Shown here in pieces: positions 11 to 5,387 of a stretch of DNA of 35,628 nucleotides. A program made the translations under genes and the position numbers. The DNA is from Deltaproteobacteria bacterium (GTDB taxonomy: Bacteria > Desulfobacterota > Dissulfuribacteria > Dissulfuribacterales > QOAL01): positions 1 through 35,628 of the forward strand of contig JALVJO010000097.1 of assembly GCA_027028245.1 (NCBI GenBank), written 5' to 3'. The notes below the pieces were generated by a model. The model saw only the letters and a list, made by a program, of their open reading frames with translations. It searched no databases and was not told the origin of the DNA. How positions within the stretch are numbered: position 1 is the stretch's first letter; each line of letters begins with the position of its first letter.

Positions 11-796
11 TTACCTGGCAACAGGGCTTACAATGACCTTCTGGGCAAGCCCCTTTCCCAAGGCCACCCTGGAGCCTTTGACGCTGACTATGAGCGGGCC
101 TCCCTTATTGAGCACTTCAACTTCCTGGCCGATGGAAATCCCCATATCGGAAAGCCTTTTTCTTATCTGCGTGCCTCCGTTGAAGTCTGTGATCTTTACC
201 CTTTCACCAGGAGAAACCATGGTGAGGGGCAGACTTCTGCCAAGCTTGCTGCTGCATTCCGGGCACACACCATAAATCGTGCACTTGTTTGAAATAGGCT
301 CAAATCCATACTCCCTGGCGGCATCCCTGATCTTTTCATCCAGTTCTTCGTGTTCGAATTCAACTACCTTGCCGCATCTCATGCACAGCATGTGGTCGTG
401 TCTTTCGCCAACATGGAGATGCTCATACCAGGGGCCCTTTCCGTTCAGTTGCACCTTCTGGGCCAGTCCATAACGGCAGAGAAGATCCAGCACATCTTCC
501 ACCTGGTCTGTTGAGACCTTGACGGATTTCTTGTTGAGCTTTTCCTTTAAATAATCAGTGGTAAGATGGCCTTCGACTGTCAAAAATTCATCGACGATCT
601 GCATTTGAACAGGAGAAAGGGCAGCTCCGGTCTGCTTCAGCAGCCTTAGAAGATCTTCTTTTTCTCTCTGGTGAAGTTTCTGGAAGCAGTTTTCTCCAGG
701 TTCCGGAGGAGTGCCGTCATCCTTGAGTTCACAGGTTTCGCAGTCACCGCATACAACGGGTTCGGATTTCATCTTGTCAAAAAGCCTCTGGAACAC
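11..796 (-). CDS. Fur-family metalloregulator fused to a C-terminal FeoA domain
   Basis: A 261-residue protein with three parts. The first ~40 residues hold a cysteine cluster (C16, C19, C22, C37). Residues ~45-182 form a Fur-type winged helix plus dimerisation domain, with the metal-site signature HDHMLCMRCG (H133, H135, C138, C141) and a second zinc pair C178/C181. Residues ~186-258 match FeoA, the small SH3-like domain of the ferrous-iron uptake system. The start is GTG at 796, preceded by a strong GGGGGAG ribosome site 7 nt away. The gene is divergent from a second Fur gene. Fur repressors sense iron, zinc or peroxide; the FeoA part suggests iron or a link to FeoB, but neither feoB nor another feo gene is in the window. 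FeoA-like SH3 domains are common on DtxR/IdeR repressors and unusual on Fur. Family calls are firm; the sensed metal is not known. Confidence 0.9.
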   Translation of the reverse strand: MFQRLFDKMKSEPVVCGDCETCELKDDGTPPEPGENCFQKLHQREKEDLLRLLKQTGAALSPVQMQIVDEFLTVEGHLTTDYLKEKLNKKSVKVSTDQVEDVLDLLCRYGLAQKVQLNGKGPWYEHLHVGERHDHMLCMRCGKVVEFEHEELDEKIRDAAREYGFEPISNKCTIYGVCPECSSKLGRSLPLTMVSPGERVKITDFNGGTQIRKRLSDMGISIGQEVEVLNKGGPLIVSVKGSRVALGKGLAQKVIVSPVAR

Positions 797-964
797 AATA
801 ACTCTCCCCCTGCAGGCAGGATAAAAAATTGATTTACTGGTATCTCCTTACAGAGATTGTTTTTCATTGTCAATAAGCCTTGACGGAATATGGTAATAGG
901 GTTAGAAAATTTTGCAAAGGCTCACTTAAATTCCGGATCCTCACTTTCTCTTTCAGGAGCAGCA
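797..964. promoter_or_regulatory. Divergent promoter region of the two Fur genes with a Fur-box-like site
   Basis: Leftward promoter: TTGACA on the minus strand at 873-868 and TAAGGA at 850-845, 17 nt apart, reading into the Fur-FeoA gene. Rightward promoter: TTGACG at 880-885 and TAGAAA at 903-908, also 17 nt apart. A 15-bp site at 858-872 (TGTTTTTCATTGTCA) matches 10 of 14 positions of the 7-1-7 Fur box TGATAATnATTATCA and overlaps the leftward -35. Autoregulation by one or both Fur proteins is inference from this layout. Confidence 0.45.
955..959 (+). promoter_or_regulatory. Ribosome site that decides the TTG start of the second Fur gene
   Basis: AGGAG, 5 nt before TTG 965. The upstream ATG at 890 has no comparable site, so this moves the start downstream. 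Confidence 0.6.
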
Positions 965-1423
965 TTGAAATCCGAACTGGAAATATTCAGGGAATTTCTC
1001 AGGAAAAAGGGCATGCGCTATACACCTGAAAGGGAAATCATAATAAAGGAAATCTTTGCCACACATGACCACTTTGACGTGGACAGTCTTTATATCTCCA
1101 TTCGCAGTAAAAAGGGACGTGTATCAAAGGCATCCATATACAGGCTGATTCCCCTGCTCATAGAGGCCAACCTGATTGAAGAGGTCTTTTTTGACGGGGG
1201 GCAAATGTATTACGAGCATATCTACGGCCATGAGCATCACTGCCACCTCCGCTGTGTAAAATGCAGGAGGATCCAGGAATTCAGCGACCAGCGCATGAAA
1301 GACCTTGAACATGACCTGTCAAAACGTTTCAACTACCAGATTCTGAGGCATAAGCTGGAGGTCATGGGCCTGTGTTCTGAGTGTCGTGACAAGGAAAAGC
1401 ATTTGTCTGATGCACCGCCTTAA
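965..1423 (+). CDS. Fur-family transcriptional regulator
   Basis: A Fur repressor: a winged helix followed by the metal-binding block GHEHHCHLRCVKC and a C-terminal CSEC zinc pair. I place the start at TTG 965, giving 152 residues, the normal Fur size. An AGGAG ribosome site lies 5 nt upstream (955-959), and the likely promoter (TTGACG 880, TAGAAA 903) straddles the alternative ATG at 890, which has no ribosome site and would add 25 poorly Fur-like residues. It is divergent from the Fur-FeoA gene and overlaps trmL by 14 nt at its 3' end, so the two are probably co-transcribed. Whether it is Fur, PerR or Zur cannot be decided from sequence alone; the histidine-rich block fits any of them. Confidence 0.9.
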   Translation: MKSELEIFREFLRKKGMRYTPEREIIIKEIFATHDHFDVDSLYISIRSKKGRVSKASIYRLIPLLIEANLIEEVFFDGGQMYYEHIYGHEHHCHLRCVKCRRIQEFSDQRMKDLEHDLSKRFNYQILRHKLEVMGLCSECRDKEKHLSDAPP

Positions 1424-1907: not shown

Positions 1908-3092
1908 TTACAAAAAGATTATGGCAAGGCCCCCGCCGGCCAGAACCACCCAGAGGATATCCACCTTGAGATAAAGGGCCGAAAAGGCAGCAATGCCTAT
2001 CAGGATTGAGGCAAGCTTCCAGCTTATGGCAAGTACAAAGCTTATGAATACTGCCAGAAGAAGTCCCACGAAGGAGGAAAGAACTCCCCGCATGCACTTT
2101 CTGAAAAGAGTGGCATCCTTGAAGTTTTCGAACACCGGGGCTGAGACCAGCAGGATAAGAAAGGATGGTGTAAATATGGCCCAGGTGCAGGCGGCTGCCC
2201 CGAAAAGACCCTTTAGAAGGTAGCCCACGAAGGCTGCGGTAATGACTATGGGCCCAGGGGTGATCTGGCCCAGTGCTATGCCGTCCATGAGGACCTTTTC
2301 CGTCAGCAGATGTCTCTTGTCCACCACTTCGTGAAGCATGAGGGGAAGAGAGGCATAGCCGCCGCCGTAGGCAAAGAAATCTATCTTCATCATGAGGGCG
2401 CAGAGCTTGCCCACCAGGGGATCTGCAATGAAGATTATGGTAAGGATGCCGGCAACTGCCGCTGTAATGATACCGGCAAACCTGACGGATTCCGAGGACA
2501 TGAGCTCCCTCATGTTCTTGGGCTTTGCTGCCTGCTCCCTGCCGTCGGCTTCTCCGGTCTTTTTTGCCGGGTAGAGAAATATTCCGGCCAGGCCGCAGGC
2601 TATTATTGCCGTTACCGGGCTTCCCTTCACAACAAGATATCCTGCCGCTGCAGCCACCAGCAGTGCATCCTGCCAGGAGCGGACCATCTTTCTTCCAAAG
2701 GACAGGGTTGCATTGGCAACAATGGCAACCACTATTACCTTAAAACCAAGAAAACAGGATTCAACCGGCTTAAGGTTGATGGCATGCATGTAGACCATTG
2801 ACAGGATGGTCATGAAGATAAAGGCAGGCAGGGAAAAGCCGGTATAGGCGGCCAGAGAGCCTATGCCGCCTCCTGCCTTGAGACCGGCATAGGCGGCTGC
2901 CTGCATGGCCGTAGCCCCAGGTATGGTTTGAACAAGGGCCACGCCGTGATCAAAATCCTCTCGTTTTACCCAGTTGTTTTTCCGGCACGACAGATCCTTG
3001 ATATACTTGACCATGGCCGGACCGCCGAAGGCAGTACATCCAAGGCGCAGAAAGGAGAGAAAAAGTTTCAGCGGCGGTACATGCTTTTCCAT
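1908..3092 (-). CDS. chrA: Chromate transporter, CHR family (two CHR domains)
   Basis: A 394-residue multi-pass membrane protein with two homologous CHR halves. The first half carries GCTAFGGPAM and QTIPGATAMQAAAYAG; the second carries FFAYGGGYASLPLM and GQITPGPIVITAAFVGY. The halves are joined by a short charged linker (KKTGEADGREQAAKPK). CHR proteins export chromate, probably in exchange for protons; many anaerobe members are untested and could move other oxyanions such as sulfate. The ATG start lies inside the end of bioB (25-nt overlap), so it is the last gene of a bioA-bioB-chrA transcription unit. No chromate regulator (chrB) is nearby. Family call is strong; the substrate is inferred. 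Confidence 0.92.
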   Translation of the reverse strand: MEKHVPPLKLFLSFLRLGCTAFGGPAMVKYIKDLSCRKNNWVKREDFDHGVALVQTIPGATAMQAAAYAGLKAGGGIGSLAAYTGFSLPAFIFMTILSMVYMHAINLKPVESCFLGFKVIVVAIVANATLSFGRKMVRSWQDALLVAAAAGYLVVKGSPVTAIIACGLAGIFLYPAKKTGEADGREQAAKPKNMRELMSSESVRFAGIITAAVAGILTIIFIADPLVGKLCALMMKIDFFAYGGGYASLPLMLHEVVDKRHLLTEKVLMDGIALGQITPGPIVITAAFVGYLLKGLFGAAACTWAIFTPSFLILLVSAPVFENFKDATLFRKCMRGVLSSFVGLLLAVFISFVLAISWKLASILIGIAAFSALYLKVDILWVVLAGGGLAIIFL

Positions 3093-3991
3093 ATCTGCCT
3101 GATCTCCTCTGCAAGGGCCAGATCCACTTCTGGAGGCCGTCCCCTGGTGGTAAGATACCCGCCTATGAGCATTGCATCGGCACCAGCCATGAAGGCCAGT
3201 GCCTGGACCTGGCCAAGTGCGGTCTCCCTGCCTCCTGCTATCCTTAAGGCACAGCGCGGCATCATTATCCTGAACATTGCAACAGCCCTCAGAATCTCCA
3301 CAACGCTCAAGACGGGAAGATCCTGGAGCCTGGTACCCCTTATTGGAACCAGTATGTTGATGGGCACAGAATCAACATTCAGCTCCGAAAGGGTGCTTGC
3401 CATGGAGAACCTGTCTGACTCTCTTTCTCCAAGGCCTATTATGCCGCCTGAACATACCTCCAGGCCGCACTCCCTGGCATGCTGGATGGTTGCAATCCGC
3501 TCCTCAAAACTGTGGGTTGAGCATATGAGCGGGAAATATTCACGCGATGCCTCAAGGTTGTGATGGTACCTGGAAACACCGGCATTTTGCAAGATTTTTA
3601 TTTTACCCTTGCTCATAATGCCCAGGGAACAACAGACATTGATGCCCACCTTCTGCCTTATCTCAAATACCCTTTCGGCAACCTGTTCCACCGTCCTCTC
3701 AGACGGTCCCCGGCCGCTGGTGACAATACTGAACCGCTGGGCACCGGTCCTGGCAGCCTCTTCTGCTTCCCTGAGGAGCACCTCCACTGATTTCAGTGGG
3801 TACAAGGGCGCGCCGGCTTCAGGAGCAGATGCCGACTGGGCACAAAAGGCACAATCTTCGCTGCAGGCACCAGAGCGCGCATTTGAGATGGTGCAGAGCC
3901 CCATCCTGAAGCCCCTGTTTTCAACCTTCAGGTCAAGGGCCTGGTTCATGAGATCCCGAAGGCCGGCTTTCTGGAATGTTTCGAGGTCCAC
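3068..3991 (-). CDS. bioB: Biotin synthase (radical SAM), variant with altered auxiliary-cluster ligands
   Basis: BioB inserts sulfur into dethiobiotin, the last biotin step. The radical-SAM [4Fe-4S] triad is C43-x3-C47-x2-C50 (GACSEDCAFC). Also conserved are YHHNLE, VCSGGIIGLGE, VPINILVPIRGT and RIAGGRE. The length (307) is slightly below the E. coli enzyme. Compared from memory with E. coli, the [2Fe-2S] ligand C97 is replaced by S88 (RFSIVTSGRGP); counterparts of C128 (C120/C121), C188 (C180) and R260 are retained. Extra cysteines C33, C157 and C247 are present. This resembles BioB of strict anaerobes, for which a different auxiliary cluster has been described. The start is GTG 3991, 10 nt after bioA and without a clear ribosome site, so coupling to bioA is likely. 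chrA overlaps its end. Confidence 0.95.
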   Translation of the reverse strand: MDLETFQKAGLRDLMNQALDLKVENRGFRMGLCTISNARSGACSEDCAFCAQSASAPEAGAPLYPLKSVEVLLREAEEAARTGAQRFSIVTSGRGPSERTVEQVAERVFEIRQKVGINVCCSLGIMSKGKIKILQNAGVSRYHHNLEASREYFPLICSTHSFEERIATIQHARECGLEVCSGGIIGLGERESDRFSMASTLSELNVDSVPINILVPIRGTRLQDLPVLSVVEILRAVAMFRIMMPRCALRIAGGRETALGQVQALAFMAGADAMLIGGYLTTRGRPPEVDLALAEEIRQIWKSMYRR

Positions 3992-4001
3992 TTCGGCTAT
4001 T

Positions 4002-5387
4002 TTAAACCCCGGGCAGCAGGCTGCTGGAAACTTCTATAATGGTGTTCCGGGTCAGTGCCATTATCTCTTCTATCTGCTCAGTAGTTACGGAAAGAGGCAG
4101 GAAAAGGTAAACAACATCTGAAAGGGGCCTTAGAATCAACCCCTTTTCAAGGCCCCTTAGATAGACCTGCCAGCCTGCCCTCTTTGATGCATCAAAGGGG
4201 GTTTTTGATCTTTTATCCTGGACCAGTTCAAATGCTGCCACCATCCCTATGCCCCGGACATCTCCCACCATGGGGATGTCAAGAAAGGCCTTTTTGCCCT
4301 CCTGGAGCCTGGCGACCTTTTCGGGCAGGCCCTCCATGACCCTTTGGGATTCAAAGACTTCCATGGAGCCCAGGGCCGAGGCACAGCATATGGGATTGGC
4401 AGTAAAGGTGTGACCGTGGAAGAAGGTCTTGCCCTGGTTGTAATCAGCGTAGAATGCACTGTATACCTCTTCTGTGGTAGCAGTAACGGCAAGAGGCAGG
4501 GTACCGCCTGTGATGCCCTTGGAAAGGCAGACAAAATCCGGGACGATGCCGGCGTGCTCCATGGCAAACATCCTGCCGGTCCGGCCGAATCCAGTTGCCA
4601 CCTCGTCCAGGATAAGATGAATTCCAAAGCGCGTGCACAGCTCATGCACCCTTGTTAAATAATCGGACGGATAAGATATCATACCTCCAGCTCCCATGAG
4701 CATGGGTTCAAGAATGAAGGCTGCTACATTTTCTGCCTCTTTTCCAAGAAGCCTCTCCAGGAAATCAGCACATTCAAGGCTGCATTCAGGGCCCTCCCCC
4801 GGGACATAACGATTTCCGCATGGACAGCGGTAACAATAGGGTGCCGGAACCGTGAAGGAATCGAAAGTAAGGGCCTCAAAGGGGCCTTCAAAGGCAGGTA
4901 CACCGCCGAGGCTCATGGTTCCTATGGTGTCCCCGTGGTAACCCCGCTCAAGGGCAATGAATTTCTCCTTCCTTTTTTCACCGGTGTGTTTCCAGTACTG
5001 AAGGGACATCTTAATGGCCACTTCACAGGCAGTTGAGCCGTTATCCGAGAAGAAAAATTTTCTTAGCTCGAAAGGAAGAAGACGTGCAAGCTTCTCGGCC
5101 AGGAGCACAGGCCCGCGGTGGGTGGTTCCGGCAAAATGTATCTGGTCCAGTCTTTGGAGCTGTTCCTTGATATGACGCCTTATTACAGGATGGTTATGGC
5201 CATGAACAATGCACCACCATGAAGAAATGGTATCGTAATAGCGGTTGCCTTCCAGGTCCCAGAGATAAACCCCTTCTGCCCTGTCCACAAAAAGGAGATC
5301 CCTTTTTTCAAAATCCTTCATCTGGGTATAGGGATGCCAGATGTATCTTTTATCAAGTTCTCTAAGTGTTTGGTTGTCCATAGGCAT
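4002..5387 (-). CDS. bioA: Adenosylmethionine-8-amino-7-oxononanoate aminotransferase
   Basis: BioA is a PLP fold-type I transaminase that makes 7,8-diaminopelargonate. Visible features are WHPYTQMKDF near the start, the SSWWC substrate-pocket segment at ~55-59, HGDTIGTMSLGG, the PLP aspartate in DEVATGFGRTGRM (~261-273) and the Schiff-base lysine K290 in LSKGITGGTLPLA. The length (461) is slightly above usual because of a cysteine-rich insert at 185-206 (C185, C188, C190, C202, C206) that could bind a metal. Some relatives use lysine rather than SAM as amino donor, and I cannot decide which applies. It is the first gene of the bioA-bioB-chrA unit. Two ATG codons (5387 and 5381) could start it, and the ribosome site is weak. 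bioC, bioD, bioF and bioH are not in the window. Confidence 0.95.
   Translation of the reverse strand: MPMDNQTLRELDKRYIWHPYTQMKDFEKRDLLFVDRAEGVYLWDLEGNRYYDTISSWWCIVHGHNHPVIRRHIKEQLQRLDQIHFAGTTHRGPVLLAEKLARLLPFELRKFFFSDNGSTACEVAIKMSLQYWKHTGEKRKEKFIALERGYHGDTIGTMSLGGVPAFEGPFEALTFDSFTVPAPYCYRCPCGNRYVPGEGPECSLECADFLERLLGKEAENVAAFILEPMLMGAGGMISYPSDYLTRVHELCTRFGIHLILDEVATGFGRTGRMFAMEHAGIVPDFVCLSKGITGGTLPLAVTATTEEVYSAFYADYNQGKTFFHGHTFTANPICCASALGSMEVFESQRVMEGLPEKVARLQEGKKAFLDIPMVGDVRGIGMVAAFELVQDKRSKTPFDASKRAGWQVYLRGLEKGLILRPLSDVVYLFLPLSVTTEQIEEIMALTRNTIIEVSSSLLPGV

Follow-up and report, generated by a model that had tools for sequence, protein, structure and literature searches.

The small protein FeoC has a winged-helix fold. 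It provides a precedent for a small cytoplasmic protein that controls the ferrous iron transporter FeoB after its synthesis (accessible part of PMC10710835). How FeoB is switched off at sufficient iron, and what role FeoA plays, are open questions in the field, and the accessible part of PMC8749426 names FeoA, FeoC and multiple FeoA proteins as subjects that need work. In the described FeoA–FeoB and FeoA–FeoA fusions (PMC8980893, PMC8749426), FeoA is joined to Feo parts, a likeness to the protein reported here; the accessible sections of both papers name no Fur fusion, and PMC8749426 mentions an FeoA with 'an additional domain' that is unnamed there. We analysed a gene in which a Fur domain is followed by an FeoA domain, located in the window (the whole 35,628-nucleotide stretch of deltaproteobacterial DNA studied), together with its homologues and neighbours (Table 1).

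Table 1. Coordinates of the features discussed, as positions in the window
Feature	Position	Strand	Basis or remark
Fur–FeoA fusion gene	11..796	-	261 aa, GTG start
Fur domain, residues 57-175	272..628	-	Pfam FUR and fold match
FeoA domain, residues 190-258, second ('type B') FeoA kind	23..229	-	Pfam, two-profile test, fold
Metal ligand block, residues 125-146 (E125, H133, D134, H135, C138, C141, E146)	359..424	-	Each residue in 68/68 fusions
Recognition helix (residues 96-108), lacking the Fur motif T-V-Y-R	473..511	-	Alignment; helix in model
C-x2-C-x2-C ... C-F motif, codons 16-37	686..751	-	Lineage-specific, 5/68 fusions
Intergenic region between the divergent genes, before the ATG at 890	797..889	.	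Holds inverted repeat GTCAATAAGCCTTGAC at 869-884
Classical Fur gene, intact S-I-Y-R	890..1423	+	Pfam FUR, 88.4 bits

The fusion gene carries a GGGGGAG-like ribosome site 5' of its start codon, and both parts of its product were recognised by Pfam: FUR (PF01475) scored 65.8 bits (E = 5e-18; cut-off 23.1) and FeoA (PF04023) scored 71.3 bits (E = 6.9e-20; cut-off 23). DtxR family domains were not found by Pfam in the protein, whose front is FUR and whose SH3 part reached only 19.6 bits for PF18357 (cut-off 25.9), and FeoC was absent from the Pfam matches reported at E values of up to 1. An AlphaFold2 model built on a 41-row alignment, which replaced a poor model from 8 rows (pLDDT 65.9), had a mean pLDDT of 78.7 and showed a winged helix, a Fur dimer core and an FeoA barrel, with the recognition helix at residues 96-108; since its pTM is low (0.45), the model does not fix how the domains are placed with respect to one another. 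The FeoA half matched the solved FeoA 7r7b (Z 14.3, 71 residues, rmsd 1.0; SH3-like fold), and the Fur half matched the solved Fur 2xig_C (Z 12.8, 149 residues, rmsd 3.3). These results bear out the preliminary description, made from the letters alone, in its account of a C-terminal FeoA domain fused to Fur and of the residues C16, C19, C22, C37, H133, H135, C138, C141, C178 and C181.

We searched 395 genomes of the window's phylum with a profile built from eight fusions (the window's and seven full-length homologues). At E 1e-25, 102 genomes were matched, and 75 rows reached the FeoA part; inspection of all 75 gave 68 fusions and seven classical Furs (L178-L184), which were set aside; several of the seven are followed by a separate feoA gene. 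The rows that fell short of the FeoA part matched mainly the Fur part, and 20 of these were fetched as controls. The fusion is thus present in 68/395 genomes, as a single frame and once per genome (the window and L111-L177; in L119 the contig end cuts inside FeoA), and by the count from this search it is spread over 28 family labels. A scan of genome contigs gave 68 loci, seven of them full-length fusions, all titled Deltaproteobacteria; its short-peptide patterns reach close relatives only. A search of 299 genomes in the phylum of a gammaproteobacterial centre returned no fusion at E 1e-30, a result that shows little because it was run without a positive control. In a quick, unrooted tree of the Fur domain minus its recognition helix (123 columns), a single branch (SH-aLRT 99) split the 68 fusions from 36 classical Furs, a pattern that fits one fusion origin rather than repeated fusion. 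Because of this recurrence in the phylum, the earlier judgement that the fusion is uncommon is only half right. Our literature searches, with subscription papers mostly outside their coverage, turned up no published account of it.

The metal sites of the Fur domain were fully conserved. The regulatory Fe2+/Mn2+ site (H, E, H, H, E) comprises H77, E125, H133, H135 and E146, which we take to be the five ligands mapped to H. pylori Fur numbering, and each was present in 68/68 fusions, as were D134 and the two CxxC pairs C138, C141, C178 and C181, the structural zinc site predicted from these residues. The metal block bears the family signature YEHxHLG; a histidine at position 170 occurs in 60/68 fusions (Asn in the window), and extra histidines stand beside the Fe2+ site at H126 (63/68) and H128 (62/68). 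It had been suggested that iron is sensed through FeoA, but the intact Fur metal site is the better place for sensing. The complete Fe2+ site and the adjacent conserved H126 and H128 would also suit a role as an iron carrier, in which the protein would accept Fe2+ from FeoB inside the cell and hold it transiently in the Fur site without signalling. Fur sites, however, hold their metal with high affinity and trigger a conformational switch, properties that suit sensing over delivery, and we consider such a carrier very improbable.

The residues with which Fur reads DNA were lost from the fusions. The recognition helix of the window's protein reads T-D-Q-V-E-D where classical Furs have A-T-V-Y-R or K-A-S-I-Y-R, so that Q-V-E-D occupies the place of T-V-Y-R. 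For comparison, 33 classical proteins were selected from the 61 non-fusion loci of the genome-contig scan, and a set of 36 was assembled from eight of these 33, the seven classical Furs L178-L184, the 20 phylum controls and the window's partner Fur. The DNA-contact Tyr was found in 0/68 fusions versus 35/36 classical relatives, and in 33/33 of the partly overlapping second set. The Arg that follows was found in 1/68 fusions (L161) versus 29/36 classical proteins, and the other seven classical proteins have Asn, as in PerR types; PerR-type proteins have Asn in place of Arg, yet bind DNA. The unfused control Furs of the same phylum carried Tyr in 19/20 (one F) and Arg in 20/20, while the Arg position was acidic in 40/68 fusions. 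In Magnetospirillum Fur, Tyr56Ala gave very weak DNA binding and Arg57Ala none (accessible part of PMC4506495).

The charge of the region had shifted in the same proteins. The recognition helix had a mean charge of -1.7 in the fusions versus +1 to +2 in classical Furs, and the DNA-binding domain a mean of -4.5 versus a classical mean of +1.4 (n = 27) and a range of +1 to +5 (n = 7); the window's own domain, at -1, is mildly acidic and lies within the classical range of -3 to +5. The DNA-facing helix columns 100 and 101 had entropies of 3.05 and 2.54 and column 104 was variable too (uncorrected for kinship), while the core columns 99 and 103 stayed conserved across the fusions; the assignment of buried and DNA-facing positions relies on the helix pattern and on comparison with Fur rather than on the model. 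Such a distribution would be expected of a helix that is retained for folding but no longer reads bases. The Fur fold had been called complete, which holds for the fold and the metal sites and fails for the DNA-reading residues. Since those residues are lost, the fusion may serve the ferrous-iron pump as an iron sensor instead of switching genes. We favour, with a probability of roughly 0.5 and by inference from sequence and gene context, the reading that the fusion is an iron-sensing accessory subunit of the FeoB transporter and no longer a Fur-box repressor. The broader proposal, that this whole branch of Fur left transcription and that its iron switch signals via FeoA to FeoB in a system of FeoB, FeoA and Fur–FeoA, is tentative.

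The fused FeoA belongs to a particular kind. A profile built from the FeoA domains of the fusions gave 71 bits for the genome's second FeoA (92 aa, contig C122) and 26-35 for other FeoA domains, and a profile of stand-alone FeoAs (those behind fusions or classical furs) scored in reverse. From these scores, Fur was joined to one particular FeoA kind that also occurs unfused in the genome's feo operon. The order Fur-FeoA, FeoA, FeoB was found in the operons of many relatives. Three proteins (L143, L156, L175) are Fur-FeoA-FeoA, with feoB in the next frame or the next but one, and in these the fusion seems to have taken up the second FeoA of the operon. Among the 14 genomes searched in the window's order, seven (G346, G365, G205, G270, G290, G310, G066) had the fusion and one other FeoA, and in G384 the fusion was the sole FeoA; each of these eight had one FeoB_C match. 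In this order Fur-FeoA, FeoA and FeoB all persist, but scattered. Contig C122 also encodes a 249-aa DtxR/MntR-like regulator with a terminal FeoA domain (L001 973-1722, L003 2273-3022), which diverges from a feo operon of two FeoA kinds and FeoB, with a FeoC match on the contig. A second feoB of the window's genome lies on contig C136 (L206 4439-6658) with no FeoA nearby; for the feoB genes of the window's genus (on C136, in G346 and in G365), neither FeoA kind was found within 9-12 kb.

Next to the fusion itself, the window begins just beyond the stop codon, and contig C106, which overlaps its first 127 bases exactly, places proC downstream; feoB is not linked in this genome. Among 67 relatives, 32 had feoB at most three genes downstream on the fusion's strand, and 35 had no linked feoB (proC downstream in 11, a cut contig in 1, other arrangements in 23). 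The proC arrangement is confined to the window's order, where it is the predominant one, often with a classical fur on the opposite side. The suggestion that the fusion ties a repressor to FeoB is therefore sustained in its link to FeoB, outside the window's lineage, and not in its DNA-bound repressor, given a Tyr absent from 68/68 fusions and an Arg absent from 67/68. FeoB occurred in 68/68 fusion genomes (table read by eye) versus 298/327 others (Fisher P = 0.005, uncorrected for kinship), a weak association because FeoB is nearly everywhere (366/395 genomes). FeoC matches above 60 bits were found in 13/395 genomes, three of them with the fusion, so FeoC is mostly, not always, absent beside it, as in the phylum generally.

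The classical fur of the window is divergent and lies upstream of the fusion, followed by a SpoU-type methylase gene. Farther along are a chromate-transporter family protein (CHR, two matched stretches; 1908-3092) and, at 3068-5387, a radical SAM protein with a BATS domain (biotin-synthase-like) adjoining a class III aminotransferase, likely a biotin gene pair. In 20/67 relatives, no more than two genes away from the fusion, there is a classical fur whose YR motif is intact, and in the window such a gene adjoins the fusion; together with the conserved Fur dimer core of the fusions, this raises the alternative that the fusion is an antagonist or partner of the adjacent classical Fur, forming heterodimers that are unable to hold DNA and so lift Fur repression, with FeoA as the link to FeoB. 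A similar proposal exists for a Desulfovibrio desulfuricans Fur without a DNA-binding domain (accessible part of PMC545781). However, 47/67 relatives have no adjacent classical fur, feoB is the commoner neighbour (32/67), and the fusion and classical Fur fall in separate clades of the core-based tree; we regard antagonism as improbable.

The DNA upstream of the fusions bears on a further alternative, in which the fusion is a DNA-binding repressor whose rewritten helix reads another operator and whose FeoA modulates activation as the C-terminal SH3-like domain does in DtxR-type repressors. The inverted repeat GTCAATAAGCCTTGAC between the divergent genes is kept in the window, L111, L112, L113 (one base off), L116 and L117, the model has an intact winged-helix fold, and FeoA-like domains occur on DtxR/MntR regulators, one of them in the window's genome; all three are consistent with such a repressor. 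Because the conserved block with GTCAATAAGCCTTGAC overlaps the ATG at 890, the start of fur probably lies further in, as may also be seen from the classical fur of close relatives, which begins at a K-S-E-L stretch. When the GTCAATAAGCCTTGAC region was compared with the Fur box WTGAAAATNATTTTCAW published for delta-proteobacteria (accessible part of PMC545781), no match was significant. This box was not enriched upstream of the fusions, either at the 32 feoB-linked loci (5.53 mismatches versus 5.83 in shuffles) or at the other 36 loci including the window (5.39 versus 5.87). No palindrome shared across the fusion family was found in the upstream regions, where small groups have their own: GTTAACGTTAAC-type repeats occur in one family (TTAACG in L134 and L138, related TGTTAA in L139 and L142), possibly as a group-specific operator. 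A nickel-regulator-like TTGCAA-N5-TTGCAA was met at 10 loci within three mismatches, which is unconvincing as it had no chance control. Separate fusion sub-groups could each read their own operator. Against a repressor of changed specificity stand the DNA-facing positions, which are variable and acidic and not conserved, the lack of a family-wide operator upstream of the fusions, and the fused FeoA, which is of the feo-operon kind and not the kind on the genome's MntR-like protein. We consider this alternative unlikely.

If the fusion is instead an accessory subunit of FeoB, its Fur core would dimerise and bind Fe2+ (or Mn2+) at the five-ligand site once cytoplasmic iron is sufficient. On metal binding, the tethered FeoA, perhaps together with the winged helix, would take up a new position on the G domain of FeoB, and this movement would alter the GTPase activity or stability of FeoB, giving feedback at the pump. 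Where FeoC is missing, the fusion would take over its role for FeoB. In the window's genome, the neighbouring classical fur would retain the transcriptional job while the fusion sits outside the feo operon. Counterpoints to this accessory-subunit reading are that 35/67 relatives and the window have no linked feoB, that the model retains an intact winged helix, which would be compatible with DNA binding of another kind, that the charge of the window's DNA-binding domain falls in the classical range, and that the window's genome has a FeoC match of its own.

The cysteine motif ahead of the Fur domain has a narrower distribution. C16, C19, C22 and C37-F38 were matched in L111, L112, L116 and L119 and partially in L117, and the motif occurs in 5/68 fusions, all within the window's own family. 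Residues 1-27 and 29-31 of the model had pLDDT below 50. As close relatives share the motif, it is a local conserved addition in two genera of one family and not a chance occurrence. The extra cysteine cluster reported earlier is thus genuine and locally conserved but is not a feature of the fusion family; zinc or an Fe-S cluster could be bound there, a role that would apply to this one sub-lineage only.

Iron feedback at the level of the pump becomes directly testable with a natural fusion of an iron sensor and FeoA that apparently no longer reads DNA in the usual way; if the accessory-subunit reading is true, a repressor family was converted into a transporter subunit. What is notable is the loss of DNA-reading residues beside a fully kept iron switch, rather than the rarity of the fusion. 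Compared with the Fur/PerR family, the fusion likewise has the fold, the Cys4 structural site and the five-ligand regulatory site, but it lacks the helix Tyr and Arg, has an acidic DNA-binding domain and carries a C-terminal FeoA. It shares with FeoA an SH3-like domain, of the kind to which the second FeoA in this genome's feo operon belongs; unlike FeoA, this domain sits behind a Fur domain and is unlinked to feoB in the window. With the DtxR/MntR/IdeR repressors the fusion has in common the plan of a winged helix, a metal-binding dimer domain and an SH3-like domain, whereas its front is Fur, its FeoA differs in kind from that of the genome's MntR-like protein, and its helix is atypical of a DNA reader. 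The likeness to FeoC lies in the proposed action of a winged helix on FeoB and not on DNA, and in the cysteine motif of one fusion sub-lineage; in contrast to FeoC, with which it has no sequence match, the fusion carries an Fe2+ sensor and its own FeoA.
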